DNA of 64,000 bases. Origin: Arundinibacter roseus. GTDB lineage: Bacteria; Bacteroidota; Bacteroidia; Cytophagales; Spirosomataceae. Made by a program: the position numbers and the translations under genes. Of the stretch, positions 39,049 through 44,820 are shown piece after piece. The notes beneath the pieces were generated by a model. It saw nothing but the letters and a program-made list of their open reading frames with translations, was not told the DNA's origin and ran no database searches. Every line of letters begins with the position of its first letter. The stretch's first letter is position 1. The stretch spans positions 496,001-560,000 of the forward strand of contig NZ_SMJU01000002.1 of NCBI RefSeq assembly GCF_004348825.1, given 5' to 3'.

Positions 39049-39198
39049 ATGCGTGCTAAACCCCGATCTATACAGACTCCCGAACAGGAAGGACTTCCTC
39101 CTTTTGTTAAATCCTGGCCACAGATGTACGGCCTGATTCTGGGCGTTCTGGTAGCTATGATTGTCTTTTTTTACGCCTTTATGATTCACTTTCAATGA
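39049..39198 (+). CDS. 49-aa single-helix membrane protein coupled to symporter
   Basis: The small protein starts MRAKPRSIQTPEQEG, has a short cytosolic-looking N-terminus with PPFVKSWPQMY, then one hydrophobic helix (YGLILGVLVAMIVFFYAF) and ends MIHFQ. Its stop TGA overlaps the symporter start in ATGA, a hallmark of translational coupling. I do not recognise a named family, but small single-helix proteins directly before a sodium:solute symporter recur in Bacteroidota, so it may be an accessory subunit or stabiliser. Confidence 0.8.
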   Translation: MRAKPRSIQTPEQEGLPPFVKSWPQMYGLILGVLVAMIVFFYAFMIHFQ

Positions 39199-40886
39199 GC
39201 TATCTGGACTGGATCGTATTGGGTCTTTCCCTTTCATTTATAGTAGGTTACGGAATATATCGTAGCTGGGAAAACAAAAATATTGAGTCGTACCTGCTGG
39301 CCAATCAGTCGCTGCCCTGGTACCATGTAACATTATCGCTGATGGCAACTCAGGCGAGCGCCATTACGTTTTTATCTGCCCCGGGACAAGCCTATACCGA
39401 CGGCATGCGCTTCGTTCAGTTTTACTTTGGTTTGCCGTTGGCGATGGTTGTGCTGTGCATTACGTTTGTGCCAAAATTTCATAAACTCAAAGTTTTTACC
39501 GCCTACGAATTTCTGGAAGGACGATTTGATCTGCGTACACGCAGCCTGACGGCCGGGCTGTTTTTGCTGCAACGCGGATTGTCTACCGGGCTTTCGATTT
39601 ACGCACCTTCCATTATACTTTCGGCTATTTTGGGCTGGGACATCACCTGGACCAACATCATTTCGGGTGGTTTGGTCATGCTCTACACGGTTACGGGAGG
39701 CGCACGCGCGGTTTCGCATACGCATTTGCAGCAAATGGGAATTGTTACGTTGGGGATGGTCATTGCCGGAGTTACAGTTGTGAAGCTTCTTCCTGACGAT
39801 GTTTCATTTACTGATGCCATTCACGTAGCAGGAAAAATGGGTAAAACCAATCTGATCGATTTCACCTTTGATTTAAATAACCGCTACAACGTGTGGTCGG
39901 GAATAATCGGCGGATTTTTTCTGCAACTTTCCTATTTCGGCACCGACCAATCGCAGGTGGGACGTTATCTGACGGGTAGTTCCATTGGCAACAGCCGCCT
40001 GGGACTTGCCATGAACGGTCTGCTGAAAATCCCGATGCAGTTTCTGATTTTACTCGTAGGTGTTCTTGTTTTTGCTTTTTACCAATTCACTACGCCACCG
40101 TTGTTTTTCAATCAGGTGCAGGTAGAGAAAGTGATGAGCAGCCAATATGCTGCTGAGTATCAAAAGCTTGAAGATAAGCATGCCCAAATTCAAAGTCAGA
40201 AAAGACCGCACGTACTGGCACTTTCGGCAGCACTTGATACCGACGATGAGGCTGGAATTGCCCGCGAAAGAGACGTATTGGGTGCCACTGAGTCCGAAGT
40301 GCAGCAGGTTCGTAAAGAAGCTCAGGCGCTTATCTCGAAGGCAAATGGTCAGGATACCAACGATGTCAACTACATTTTTCTTCGCTTCGTCATTGACTAC
40401 CTCCCCGCCGGCCTCGTCGGTTTGCTGATTGCGGTCATTCTGCTCGCGTCGATGGGCTCGGTAGCAGCAGCGTATAATTCGCTGGCGTCCACCACGGTAA
40501 TTGATGTCTACAAACGAATGGTCAAAACTGACGGCACACCCGAGCATTACGTGCGGGTGTCGCGCTGGACTACGTTCGGTTGGGGTATTTTTTGCATCAT
40601 TGTGGCGCAGTATGCCAGCCGATTGGGTAGTATGATTGAGGCAGTTAATGTGCTGGGTTCTTTGTTTTACGGGGTAATCTTAGGAGTTTTTCTGGTAGCT
40701 TTTTATTTCAAATCCATCGGCAGCAGGGCCGTTTTCTGGGGCGCGGTTATCGGTGAGGTTTTTGTCTTTGCGAGCTATATTTATGAGCTTACGGCCTTTT
40801 TATGGCTAAATCTCATTGGGTGTGTGCTCGTCATATTTATTGCCTGGCTCCTTGAAAAAGTCTGGCCGCAACCTGTAAAAGCCTAA
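39195..40886 (+). CDS. Sodium:solute symporter (SSS family)
   Basis: A 563-aa membrane protein with about 13-14 helices. SSS features: LSLMATQASAITFLSAPGQAY (helix 1 region, substrate and sodium site; given here in part as QASAITFLSAPGQ), LSYFGTDQSQVGRYL, and ASMGSVAAAYNSLAST. A hydrophilic loop at about 310-385 (ESEVQQVRKEAQ) is longer than usual and partly helical. It imports an unknown solute with Na+. It overlaps the 49-aa gene by 4 nt and ends at a strong terminator. Confidence 0.94.
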   Translation: MSYLDWIVLGLSLSFIVGYGIYRSWENKNIESYLLANQSLPWYHVTLSLMATQASAITFLSAPGQAYTDGMRFVQFYFGLPLAMVVLCITFVPKFHKLKVFTAYEFLEGRFDLRTRSLTAGLFLLQRGLSTGLSIYAPSIILSAILGWDITWTNIISGGLVMLYTVTGGARAVSHTHLQQMGIVTLGMVIAGVTVVKLLPDDVSFTDAIHVAGKMGKTNLIDFTFDLNNRYNVWSGIIGGFFLQLSYFGTDQSQVGRYLTGSSIGNSRLGLAMNGLLKIPMQFLILLVGVLVFAFYQFTTPPLFFNQVQVEKVMSSQYAAEYQKLEDKHAQIQSQKRPHVLALSAALDTDDEAGIARERDVLGATESEVQQVRKEAQALISKANGQDTNDVNYIFLRFVIDYLPAGLVGLLIAVILLASMGSVAAAYNSLASTTVIDVYKRMVKTDGTPEHYVRVSRWTTFGWGIFCIIVAQYASRLGSMIEAVNVLGSLFYGVILGVFLVAFYFKSIGSRAVFWGAVIGEVFVFASYIYELTAFLWLNLIGCVLVIFIAWLLEKVWPQPVKA

Positions 40887-40893
40887 CGAATGA

Positions 40894-40926
40894 AACGCCT
40901 GCCGACTCCTGGCAGGCGTTTTTTTT
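40894..40926 (+). terminator. Rho-independent terminator after the symporter
   Basis: A 10-bp perfect stem AACGCCTGCC / GGCAGGCGTT with a 7-nt loop, followed by at least six T's. It lies 8 bp after the symporter stop. Confidence 0.93.
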
Positions 40927-41017
40927 GCAACGGATCATTTGCTCCATGGCATGCTTCTTATGGAACTCAGGAGAGAAATCACCACAATTTCTCAAAGGAA
41001 CTATTTCTCCTGCACCT

Positions 41018-41539
41018 ATGGAAACTACGCAATTATCAAGAAACACGAATACATCAAAGATCGATTGTATACGAACAGTTACGTTTACCATCAATGGCCA
41101 ATCAACTCAGCTTCAACTGCCTCCGTGGGTTAGTTTGCTGGATGCCCTGCGTCATCATCTGCATCTGACCGGCACCAAAAAAGGCTGCGATCATGGTCAG
41201 TGCGGCGCTTGTACGGTTATGTGCGACGGCAAACGGATTCTGAGTTGCCTCACCCTGGCCGTCTCTAAAGATCAATCTTCTATTACGACCATAGAAGGCA
41301 TTGCCGACAACGGGGAGTTGCATCCATTGCAGAAAGCATTTATTGAATATGATGCTTTTCAATGCGGCTACTGTACGCCGGGGCAAATTTGTAGTGCGGT
41401 AGGAATGATGCAGGAAGGGAAAGCCCAAAATAGGGCAGAGGTTCAGGAGCTTATGAGTGGAAATCTTTGTCGATGCGGAGCAAATTCACAAATAATTGAC
41501 GCGATTATGGAAGTCTATATCCCTGAAACACATGAATAA
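41018..41539 (+). CDS. Molybdenum hydroxylase [2Fe-2S] subunit (PaoA/XdhC-like small subunit)
   Basis: A 173-aa iron-sulfur protein with a plant-type [2Fe-2S] site (Cys57, Cys62, Cys65, Cys77; GCDHGQCGACTV) and a second site (Cys116, Cys119, Cys151, Cys153; CGYCTPGQIC and LCRCG). It carries electrons from the molybdenum centre to FAD. Start at 41018 (METTQLSRNTNT) is preferred over the frame from 40925, whose extra residues overlap a terminator. No Tat signal is visible, unlike periplasmic E. coli PaoA, so the complex is probably cytoplasmic. It overlaps the next gene by 8 nt. Confidence 0.94.
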   Translation: METTQLSRNTNTSKIDCIRTVTFTINGQSTQLQLPPWVSLLDALRHHLHLTGTKKGCDHGQCGACTVMCDGKRILSCLTLAVSKDQSSITTIEGIADNGELHPLQKAFIEYDAFQCGYCTPGQICSAVGMMQEGKAQNRAEVQELMSGNLCRCGANSQIIDAIMEVYIPETHE

Positions 41540-42554
41540 TTTCACCTACACCAAAGCCCAATCCACAGAGGAAGCGGTGGCAGGGCTTGCCAAAAATTCG
41601 CAGGCGGAACTACTTGCCGGAGGCACCAATCTGATTGATTTGATGAAGTATAATCTTCAACACGCCGAACATTTGATTGATATAAATCACGTACAGGGAT
41701 GTCAGACAATTGAAGAAAACAGCGCCGGAGGGATACGTCTCGGAGCTCTCGTGACCAATGCCGACACGGCCTATCACCCACTGATCGGACAGCGGTATCC
41801 TTTGCTTTCAAAGGCTATTTTGGCGGGAGCGTCGGCCCAAATCCGAAACATGGCTACCAATGGCGGCAATCTCCTGCAACGTACCCGTTGCTACTATTTT
41901 TACGATGCCCACGCCCCATGTAACAAGCGAGAGCCAGGAACCGGCTGCTCAGCGCTGGAAGGCTACAACCGCATTATGGCGATTTTGGGCACAAGCCCAC
42001 AGTGTATTGCCGTTTTCCCTTCCGATATGTGTGTTGCTCTTGCGGCGCTGGAAGCTGTGGTGCGTGTAAAAGGTCCGGCGGGTGAAAGAGTCATTAATTT
42101 TGAAGATTTTCATCGGCTTCCTGCCGATACTCCGCACCTTGATAACTCGTTGCAGGCCGGAGAAATGATCACGGGTATTGACTTGCCCGAAGAAGGTTTT
42201 GAGCAAAATTACTCGTATCTCAAACTTCGCGATCGAAATTCTTATTCCTTCGCACTTGTCTCGGTAGCAACCGGATTAAAACTTTCGGGAGATCGGATTG
42301 ATCTTGCACGAATTGCCCTGGGCGGTGTAGCCCACAAACCCTGGCGTGTGAAGGAAGCCGAAGAGTTTTTAAAAGGAAAAACTGCTTCACCCGAAAATTT
42401 CACCAAAGCCGCTGACCTGATCCTGGAAGGTGCCGTCGGATTCACACACAACGCATTTAAAATTGAGCTGGCAAAGCGAGCGATTGTCCGAAATGGAATA
42501 ATGGCGTTGAATCCTTCTGAAACGCAACGGCCTGGTGCACAGCCTTCGCTCTAA
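41532..42554 (+). CDS. Molybdenum hydroxylase FAD subunit with [4Fe-4S] site (PaoB-like)
   Basis: A 340-aa FAD-binding subunit: LLAGGTNLIDLMK (FAD loop) and NMATNGGNLLQRTRC. Four cysteines at 120, 130, 139 and 158 (RTRCYYF, APCNKREPGTGC, SPQC) match the [4Fe-4S] site found in PaoB-type aldehyde oxidoreductases and absent from most xanthine dehydrogenase FAD subunits. It receives electrons from the [2Fe-2S] subunit. ATG 41532 is chosen as the start (MNNFTYTKAQ); it overlaps the upstream stop. Confidence 0.93.
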   Translation: MNNFTYTKAQSTEEAVAGLAKNSQAELLAGGTNLIDLMKYNLQHAEHLIDINHVQGCQTIEENSAGGIRLGALVTNADTAYHPLIGQRYPLLSKAILAGASAQIRNMATNGGNLLQRTRCYYFYDAHAPCNKREPGTGCSALEGYNRIMAILGTSPQCIAVFPSDMCVALAALEAVVRVKGPAGERVINFEDFHRLPADTPHLDNSLQAGEMITGIDLPEEGFEQNYSYLKLRDRNSYSFALVSVATGLKLSGDRIDLARIALGGVAHKPWRVKEAEEFLKGKTASPENFTKAADLILEGAVGFTHNAFKIELAKRAIVRNGIMALNPSETQRPGAQPSL

Positions 42555-42573
42555 ACATTTGACTTCTGAACGT

Positions 42574-44820
42574 ATGGAAACTATCAATCAAAAACAGCAG
42601 GGAAAAGCCCTTAGCCGGCTGGAAGGAGCACTCAAAGTCACAGGTGCGGCTCAGTATGCCGGTGAGTATTCGGCGCCGGATTTGCTGTATGGCCATGTAG
42701 TAAACAGCACGATTCCAAAAGGTAAAATCCAAAAGATTTATACAGAAGAAATTCTAAAATTACCCGGAATAATTGAGATTTTTACTCATGAAAATCGTCC
42801 TTCACTTGCCTGGTTTAATTTCCAGTATAGCGACATGGACGCTCCGCCGGGATCGCCGTTTCGTCCGTTGCATGATGCTGAAATAAAATACTATGGCCAA
42901 CCCGTAGCATTGGTGGTAGCCGAGAGCTTTGAAGAAGCACGATTTGCCGCTTCTGTGTTGAAAATTGACTACGAAAAAGAAGCCTTTACCACGAATTTTA
43001 CCAATCAGCTGGACGACGCACGTGCTCCGAAACGAGGGTTTGCCACCCTCCTGAAACCCCTGCCGCCAAAACCCAAAGGGGATTTTGACAAAGCTTTTGA
43101 CGAAAGCCCCGTGCAAGTTTCAGCCGATGATTACTACCACGGAACGGAACATCATAATCCGATGGAAATGCACGCGACCACCACAATGTTTGAGGGGGAG
43201 GGCAAATTAACCATCTATGACAAAACCCAGGGAACCGTCAATAGTCAATTGTATGTAGCCAATGTCTTTGGACTGTCATTCAAAGATGTACGAGTAATTG
43301 CACCGTATGTAGGTGGCGCATTTGGGTCAGGACTTCAGCCTCAATATCAATTGTTTATGTCTGTAATGGCCGCGCTGGAATTGAAACGTTCGGTGCGGGT
43401 CACTCTGACTCGCGCCCAAATGTATACGTTTGGGCACCGCCCGCCGACCTTGCAGCAAATCAAAGTTGCTGCCGAAATGGACGGAAAAATTACGGCTTTA
43501 CACCATAAGGCAACAGCCGAAACTTCCCGGTTTGAAGACTATACCGAAGTGGTGGTCAATTGGGGGAATATTCTCTATCCTGTCGAAAACACAAAGCTTG
43601 ACTATGAACTTGTACCCGTGGATGTGTACAGCCCGCTTGACATGCGTGCTCCCGGTGGTAGTACAGGACTGCATCCGCTGGAATGTGCGCTCGACGAACT
43701 TGCCTACGAGTTAAAAATGGATCCACTGGACCTGCGCCTGAAAAATTATGCCGAACAGGATGATTCGGAAAACCGTCCGTTTTCCAGCAAAGAATTGAAG
43801 GAATGCTACCTGCAGGGAGCCGAAAAATTTGGTTGGTACAATCGTAGTCCGCAGCCACGCAGCATGCGCAGGGGCAACCGGTTGGTGGGCTACGGCATGG
43901 CAACCGGCATTTGGGAAAGCATGACTTTACCCGCCAAAGCCGAAGCTACCCTTACCAAAGAAGGTAAGTTTAGGGTACGTAGCGCTGTTACTGACATCGG
44001 GACGGGTACTTTGACGGTTATGACGCAAATTGCCGCAGATGCTCTGGGGGTAGGGCTGGACGAGGTAGAATTTGAGTACGGAGATAGCAAAATGCCATTT
44101 GCACCAATTCAGGGCGGTTCGTATACCGTATCTACGGTAGGTTCGGCAGTAGTGGCTGCATGTCAGGCTTTGCGAAAAAGATTATTGAAAATCGCTCAAA
44201 AAGCCAACGGAAGTCTGTTTGAAACTGCTTCTGAGTCGAAGGTTTCGCTTACCAATGGACATCTGAGCCTGAGCGAGAAACCAGATGTAGCTGTTTCGTT
44301 TCAGGAATTATTGACAGTTTCAGGCAAGAGAATGATCAAAGCGTCAAAAACGAATATTCCAAATCCTCTAACGCTGAAAAAGTACACCCGCGCTGCGCAT
44401 AGCGCCGCTTTTGTTGAAGTTGAGGTTGATGAAGAATTAGGTGTTATAAATGTTACAAGAGCGCTCACCGCCGTGGCCGCTGGAACAATCGTGAATCCTA
44501 AAACCGCTCGAAGTCAGATTGTGGGCGGCATGGTTTGGGGGATTAGTAAGGCTCTGCGGGAAGAAACGATTACGGACCACCGTCTGGGAAGATACATGAA
44601 TCCAAACCTGGCCGAATATCATATTCCGGTACACGCCGACATTCATGATCTGGACGTGATTTTTGTAGAGGAAAAAGATGATATTGTCAATCCTTTGGGT
44701 AGCAAAGGATTGGGTGAAATTGGCATTGTAGCCTTGCCGCCGGCAATCGCAAATGCCGTCTTTCATGCCACAGGCAAACGAATCCATCAATTACCCATTC
44801 ACTTCGACATGCTTTTGTAA
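42574..44820 (+). CDS. Molybdenum hydroxylase molybdopterin subunit (PaoC-like)
   Basis: The 748-aa catalytic subunit: VTGAAQYAGEY near the N-terminus, YVGGAFGSGLQPQ for molybdopterin contact, the DMRAPGGSTGLHPLECALDE region (shown here as DMRAPGGSTG), and catalytic Glu715 in KGLGEIG. It oxidises an aldehyde or heteroaromatic carbon using water and needs molybdopterin (cytosine dinucleotide in Pao-like enzymes). The start at 42574 (METINQKQQGKALSR) is preferred over an upstream GTG. No XdhC/PaoD-type maturation factor is encoded next to it, so maturation must come from elsewhere. Confidence 0.93.
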   Translation: METINQKQQGKALSRLEGALKVTGAAQYAGEYSAPDLLYGHVVNSTIPKGKIQKIYTEEILKLPGIIEIFTHENRPSLAWFNFQYSDMDAPPGSPFRPLHDAEIKYYGQPVALVVAESFEEARFAASVLKIDYEKEAFTTNFTNQLDDARAPKRGFATLLKPLPPKPKGDFDKAFDESPVQVSADDYYHGTEHHNPMEMHATTTMFEGEGKLTIYDKTQGTVNSQLYVANVFGLSFKDVRVIAPYVGGAFGSGLQPQYQLFMSVMAALELKRSVRVTLTRAQMYTFGHRPPTLQQIKVAAEMDGKITALHHKATAETSRFEDYTEVVVNWGNILYPVENTKLDYELVPVDVYSPLDMRAPGGSTGLHPLECALDELAYELKMDPLDLRLKNYAEQDDSENRPFSSKELKECYLQGAEKFGWYNRSPQPRSMRRGNRLVGYGMATGIWESMTLPAKAEATLTKEGKFRVRSAVTDIGTGTLTVMTQIAADALGVGLDEVEFEYGDSKMPFAPIQGGSYTVSTVGSAVVAACQALRKRLLKIAQKANGSLFETASESKVSLTNGHLSLSEKPDVAVSFQELLTVSGKRMIKASKTNIPNPLTLKKYTRAAHSAAFVEVEVDEELGVINVTRALTAVAAGTIVNPKTARSQIVGGMVWGISKALREETITDHRLGRYMNPNLAEYHIPVHADIHDLDVIFVEEKDDIVNPLGSKGLGEIGIVALPPAIANAVFHATGKRIHQLPIHFDMLL

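Follow-up and report, generated by a model that had tools for sequence, protein, structure and literature searches.

Single-helix accessory subunits of SLC5-type transporters are known from the human SGLT2 (SLC5A2)-MAP17 (PDZK1IP1) pair, in which the role of the small protein is still debated and the two proteins are encoded by separate genes, in contrast to the single operon of the bacterial pair described here. Other small membrane proteins encoded beside sodium:solute symporter (SSS) genes include DUF4212/TIGR03647, DUF485 (YjcH) and DUF997 (YhdT), all of which are about 80-100 aa long and have two helices. The model NF045580 (symport_access), whose full name is presumably symporter small accessory protein, is also very small (33 positions) and is linked to symporters by its name. 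The symporter SiaT is not known to have a small partner. As a kind of protein, the single-helix companion of an SSS transporter is already known. A report on SGLT2 (PMC10803289) describes the single helix of MAP17 as binding TM13 of the transporter, and MAP17 together with the bundle domain (TM1, TM2, TM6 and TM7) as the immobile part of SGLT2, that is, a fixed scaffold.

Here, we analyzed a stretch of 64,000 nt from Arundinibacter roseus (the whole of which is called the window) and loci related to it, and suggest that a 49-aa protein encoded in it is an accessory subunit of this SSS symporter clade, a reading to which we assign a probability of about 0.8 and in which binding is inferred from comparative sequence analysis. 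The features are listed in Table 1. The original prediction of a 49-aa membrane frame coupled by ATGA to a sodium:solute symporter was confirmed by open reading frame coordinates, profile matches and hydrophobicity. A strong terminator lies 3' of the symporter gene (the 50-base stretch from position 40886 folds at -24.6 kcal/mol), and thus the two genes appear to form a unit of their own in the A. roseus genome; the gene 5' of the small frame is on the opposite strand. On the other hand, the candidate promoter that the two genes had been proposed to share was not supported, as neither type of scan gave anything above chance: a sigma-70 scan upstream found one site compared with a mean of 3.4 in shuffled sequence, and no strong pair of Bacteroidota-type elements (TTTG / TAnnTTTG) was present within 235 bases upstream. 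Past the terminator (window positions 40925-44820), the translations resemble a three-part xanthine-dehydrogenase-type enzyme with 2Fe-2S, FAD and molybdenum subunits.

Table 1. Features of the A. roseus locus (GCF_004348825.1, contig NZ_SMJU01000002.1, positions 496,001-560,000 of the forward strand), given in window coordinates, and of the deacetylase gene found in related loci (last line, locus coordinates)
Feature	Position	Strand	Remark or basis
Small single-helix membrane protein, 49 aa	39049..39198	+	ATG 39049 to TGA 39198; conserved upstream of symporters
ATGA, symporter start overlapping the stop of the small frame	39195..39198	+	Same overlap in 218/314 pairs
Sodium:solute symporter (SSS/SLC5 fold), 563 aa	39195..40886	+	ATG 39195 to TAA 40886; profiles and model
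Symporter TM2 (residues 73-98), candidate contact helix (74, 82, 85)	39411..39488	+	Couplings, suggestive only
Symporter periplasmic loop EL3, residues 213-220, including G213 and 218	39831..39854	+	Covariation, relaxation
Symporter TM7 (residues 264-296), candidate contact helix	39984..40082	+	Couplings and relaxation, suggestive only
Intrinsic terminator, stem CGCCTGCC / GGCAGGCG then T run	40896..40926 (about)	+	Folding energy
Secreted-looking PIG-L-type deacetylase gene, 840 aa	L079 2900-5419; also loci L101-L180	- (L079)	Precedes small gene and symporter

The larger protein matched both Pfam SSF PF00474 (114.4 bits, cut-off 22.8; E 7.5e-33) and NCBIfam TIGR00813 (202 bits, cut-off 184; E 1.6e-59). 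Its AlphaFold2 model (pLDDT 85.2, pTM 0.83) aligned end to end with SiaT, SMCT1, NIS and SGLT (Z 27 to 45.7), which corresponds to the LeuT-type SSS fold. Helix numbers and topology used below follow the helices of this model in the SGLT scheme, and the in/out assignment is the one that we take to be general for the fold. SiaT (5nv9, 5nva) was the closest solved structure (Z 45.7, 24% identity over 466 residues), but differs by lacking a stretch of about 90 residues (about 297-390; window 40083-40364), which is inserted between TM7 and TM8 of the A. roseus protein, forms two long helices rich in charge and is predicted, from the assumed topology, to be periplasmic. The alignment with SGLT2 stopped at residue 552-554; hence the symporter has no counterpart of TM13, which is the helix bound by MAP17 according to the SGLT2 report.

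To characterize the distribution of the small gene, we searched for it in front of SSS genes of relatives, as the original prediction had proposed. Among the first 48 orthologous loci, a small homologue was located just upstream of the symporter in 43; the model used for these loci was built from 25 small frames and also detected loci outside that set. In the larger collection (388 fetched loci with a symporter, 340 of them distinct and 339 with at least 150 bases of upstream sequence), the small frame was conserved just upstream in 314 of the 339 distinct orthologues, mostly from Bacteroidota, which is the opposite of the outcome that would have spoken against the prediction. The first, non-iterated model had found it in 263 of 304 loci. 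Given this conservation and a best score of only 9.0 bits on the reverse strand (threshold 18), chance occurrence of the frame is excluded. Named records with the symporter came from Dyadobacter, Spirosoma, Pedobacter, Sphingobacterium, Chitinophaga, Mucilaginibacter and Pontibacter, and, outside these genera, from Ignavibacteriales and one record labelled Thermoanaerobaculia (the label being that of a metagenome bin). The small frame was present in 78 of the 80 loci of this named-record set.

We also examined an even sample of the phylum (392 Bacteroidota genomes; E <= 1e-80 for the symporter and E <= 1e-3 for the small gene). The symporter occurred in 154 genomes and the small gene in 83, the latter being an underestimate of the pairs because diverged copies score low and many of them are recovered by the iterated model. 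All but one of the 83 genomes (the exception was G215) also carried the symporter, and 80 of 85 small-gene matches were directly upstream of it. The A. roseus genome contained a single match to the small family compared with 16 symporter matches. Two further arrangements were observed. One genome (G468) has two copies of the small gene-symporter pair (L191 and L226) near both ends of one contig, and one of its symporter copies contains an in-frame TAG. In another genome (G544), an additional, weaker small-gene homologue (C3:2549676-2549792; E 1.6e-5) is present, next to which no symporter was matched.

The small protein consists of a variable N-terminus, an invariant W23-x3-Y27 motif and a hydrophobic helix at about residues 28-48, which is its only hydrophobic stretch (best 19-residue Kyte-Doolittle mean 2.69, from residue 28) and distinguishes it from DUF4212, DUF485 and DUF997. 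The median length of its homologues was 40 aa (n=279), and W23 and Y27 were found in 99% and 100%, respectively, of the distinct sequences (n=253). Conservation along the helix showed a periodicity that peaked at 100 degrees (p 4e-4, 5000 shuffles), suggesting a single buried helix face, and the conserved face comprises W23, Y27, V30, L34, I38, F41, T/M45 and F48. At the DNA level, median pairwise dN/dS was 0.22 (60 of 136 pairs computable), and identity at the three codon positions was 0.65, 0.77 and 0.42, third positions being the least conserved. Judged from these substitution patterns, the small frame evolves as a protein-coding gene. It could be argued that translation of the frame merely sets the expression of the symporter and that the peptide itself is functionless, considering that the ATGA overlap is common to 218 of the 314 homologous pairs. 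However, the constraint on amino acids (dN/dS about 0.22), the invariant Trp and Tyr and the conserved helix face all argue against such a leader, as do the covariation and the unlinked copies described below, and we regard it as the least plausible of the explanations considered here.

Pfam and NCBIfam scans of the A. roseus small protein gave no family match, and full scans of 35 homologues (alignment A1) and 50 core segments (alignment A3) against both libraries returned only weak unrelated matches. Thus, this is a conserved family of about 40 aa for which neither of the two main model libraries, Pfam and NCBIfam, contains a model. No paper describing the small protein-symporter pair was found in a search of the open-licence literature, and no plasmid record carrying an annotation of the pair was matched. 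It might be asked whether the protein is a diverged member of a small-partner family that has been modelled already, such as NF045580, TIGR03647/DUF4212, DUF485 or a similar one, since the setting implied by its name and the size class (a 33-position model) are shared with symport_access. This is very improbable: none of the 35 A1 members and none of the 50 A3 segments matched any of these families, including DUF997. For NF045580 (curated cut-off 35 bits), the absence of matches holds at E 0.1 for the A1 members and at E 0.01 for the A3 segments; among 14 control genomes this model matched only Methanosarcina acetivorans, and it had no match in the A. roseus genome. Pfam includes a MAP17 model, and a sequence relation to MAP17 was likewise not detectable when A1 and A3 were scanned against Pfam.

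Genomes in which the two genes are separated provide additional information. In 22 genomes with a symporter but no adjacent small frame, the small gene was identified elsewhere in seven. One of these (G137) was rejected as a detached copy because the assembly is split there: 92 bases separate the start of the symporter from a contig end, and the small gene is located at the end of another contig. In the remaining six genomes (G039, G058, G164, G616, G449 and G214), the small gene is unlinked but kept, which makes a pure leader role hard to sustain and points to action of the small gene product in trans, apart from the position of the symporter, as far as gene arrangement can tell. In G214, about 15 kb separate the detached gene (L397) from the symporter, and the detached gene adjoins, on the opposite strand, one that resembles a DASS-type symporter gene; G224, a genome of the same genus, has a weak small-gene match likewise about 15 kb away.

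The neighbourhood of the pair often includes a third gene. In most Bacteroidota, the pair is preceded by a PIG-L-type deacetylase gene (840 aa in G039, PF02585): of 77 distinct loci whose upstream sequence reaches at least 2.5 kb, 57 have such a gene terminating no more than 1 kb before the symporter. The order PIG-L, small gene, symporter is probably the old one. This linkage raises the question of whether the small protein instead partners the secreted deacetylase or anchors it in the membrane, the symporter being a third member. The fact that four of the six detached small genes (those of G039, G058, G164 and G616) follow a PIG-L gene leaves room for such a partnership. However, the two PIG-L homologues of A. 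roseus are on contigs other than that of the window while the small gene is still beside the symporter, and residue 44 of the small protein covaries with residue 218 of the symporter. Overall, a primary association with the deacetylase appears quite unlikely. Based on the linked deacetylase, we would guess that the symporter substrate is an amino sugar or a derivative.

The covariation was identified by a mean-field coupling analysis of 253 paired sequences (effective number 203). Of the 13,237 couplings between the two proteins, none was as strong as that of small-protein residue 44 with symporter residue 218 (z 14), and just one long-range coupling within the symporter itself would be stronger. 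When small proteins were permuted inside symporter clades (33-43% of rows being unmoved), the 12 permutations gave scores of 1.02-2.11 compared with the observed 2.88, and only this pair exceeded the within-clade null, TM2 and the other weaker couplings being inside its range. With Phe44, symporter residue 218 was non-Met in 137 cases and Met in 2, whereas with Ile, Leu, Val or Met at position 44 it was Met in 76 and non-Met in 38. By parsimony, Met218 was gained 18 times, in 17 cases on a branch where position 44 was Ile, Leu, Val or Met (p 3.4e-6 without correction; about 0.045 after multiplication by 13,237 pairs). The association persisted in a hold-out set of 56 later pairs that were <90% identical to the first set (15, 11, 4 and 26; Fisher p 6.5e-4, phylogeny uncorrected). 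It should be noted that these covariation tests correct for phylogeny only in part. Using all 309 pairs, the top 50 couplings included 7 in TM2 (expected 2.1), 9 in EL3 (3.5) and 6 in TM7 (2.2). In a band test, the p values were 0.0075 for TM7 and 0.072 for TM2 before correction, and 0.235 and 0.14, respectively, after it. The direction of this coupling-derived TM2/TM7 interface fits the expected topology, but is non-significant after correction, and the interface is regarded as no more than suggestive.

A different line of evidence came from symporters without a small partner in the searched stretch (about 17 distinct sequences), which imply that the small protein is dispensable in some lineages. 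Among 114 conserved columns, the most relaxed in this set was G213 of EL3, which is five residues before position 218 in the same loop: Gly was present in 7 of 17 partner-less symporters versus 303 of 309 partnered ones. In TM7, F283 and M281 were the second and fifth most relaxed columns. A relaxation test of EL3 and TM7 gave p 0.013, a value for regions picked after the coupling result was known. The set is small (n=17), includes related sequences, and has two members that may hold a diverged small frame (L048 and L304, with weak candidate frames missed by the model). No fusion or extra helix that might replace the small protein was seen in the 17 sequences.

Taken together, conservation next to the symporter over nearly all of the phylum Bacteroidota, the 44-218 covariation, the loss of G213 when the partner is missing and the retention of unlinked copies support the small accessory subunit that was originally predicted, its binding to the symporter being inferred. 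In the mechanism that we propose, coupled translation would supply the subunit just before the symporter is made. The helix would insert with its N-terminus inside and its C-terminus outside, which would bring W-x3-Y to the cytoplasmic interface; the conserved face of the helix may pack on the immobile bundle side, at TM2 and TM7, and its periplasmic end, at residue 44, may touch EL3 around residue 218. Since both covariation and relaxation point to the bundle side and the loop above it, we favour a role as a scaffold that stabilizes the bundle domain or serves in its assembly, similar to that proposed for MAP17 in SGLT2. This choice of a scaffold over a regulator is the least certain step, with the odds leaning only slightly towards it. 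A regulatory subunit would also bind the symporter, but would throttle or gate it, as small transporter inhibitors do, rather than stabilize it, and all the evidence of association (linkage, covariation and relaxation) fits it equally well. Nevertheless, near-constant presence and co-translation argue for a structural part, as a regulator would be expected to be lost or separately controlled more often, and a purely regulatory role is considered unlikely.

The accessory subunit reading is best compared with MAP17. Both are single-helix proteins associated with symporters that share one fold. According to the SGLT2 report, MAP17 moves with the bundle domain, and the candidate contacts of the small protein (TM2 and TM7) are on the bundle side as well. 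No sequence relation between the two was detectable in the Pfam scans, and the best reading is that the small protein is MAP17-like by role and not homologous. A broader proposal, which we put forward tentatively and at somewhat less than even odds, is that the Bacteroidota have a MAP17 of their own, namely a phylum-wide two-polypeptide SSS class in which the separate helix replaces the C-terminal helix of SGLTs and which descends from an ancestral three-gene uptake unit that included a secreted PIG-L-type deacetylase. If this is true, a separate single helix sits on the bundle domain where SGLTs carry the C-terminal helix that is bound by MAP17. An independent bacterial case of an accessory helix, which is phylum-wide and traceable by covariation, would offer a simple system for asking what a helix of this kind does, and studies that express this symporter clade alone may miss a subunit.
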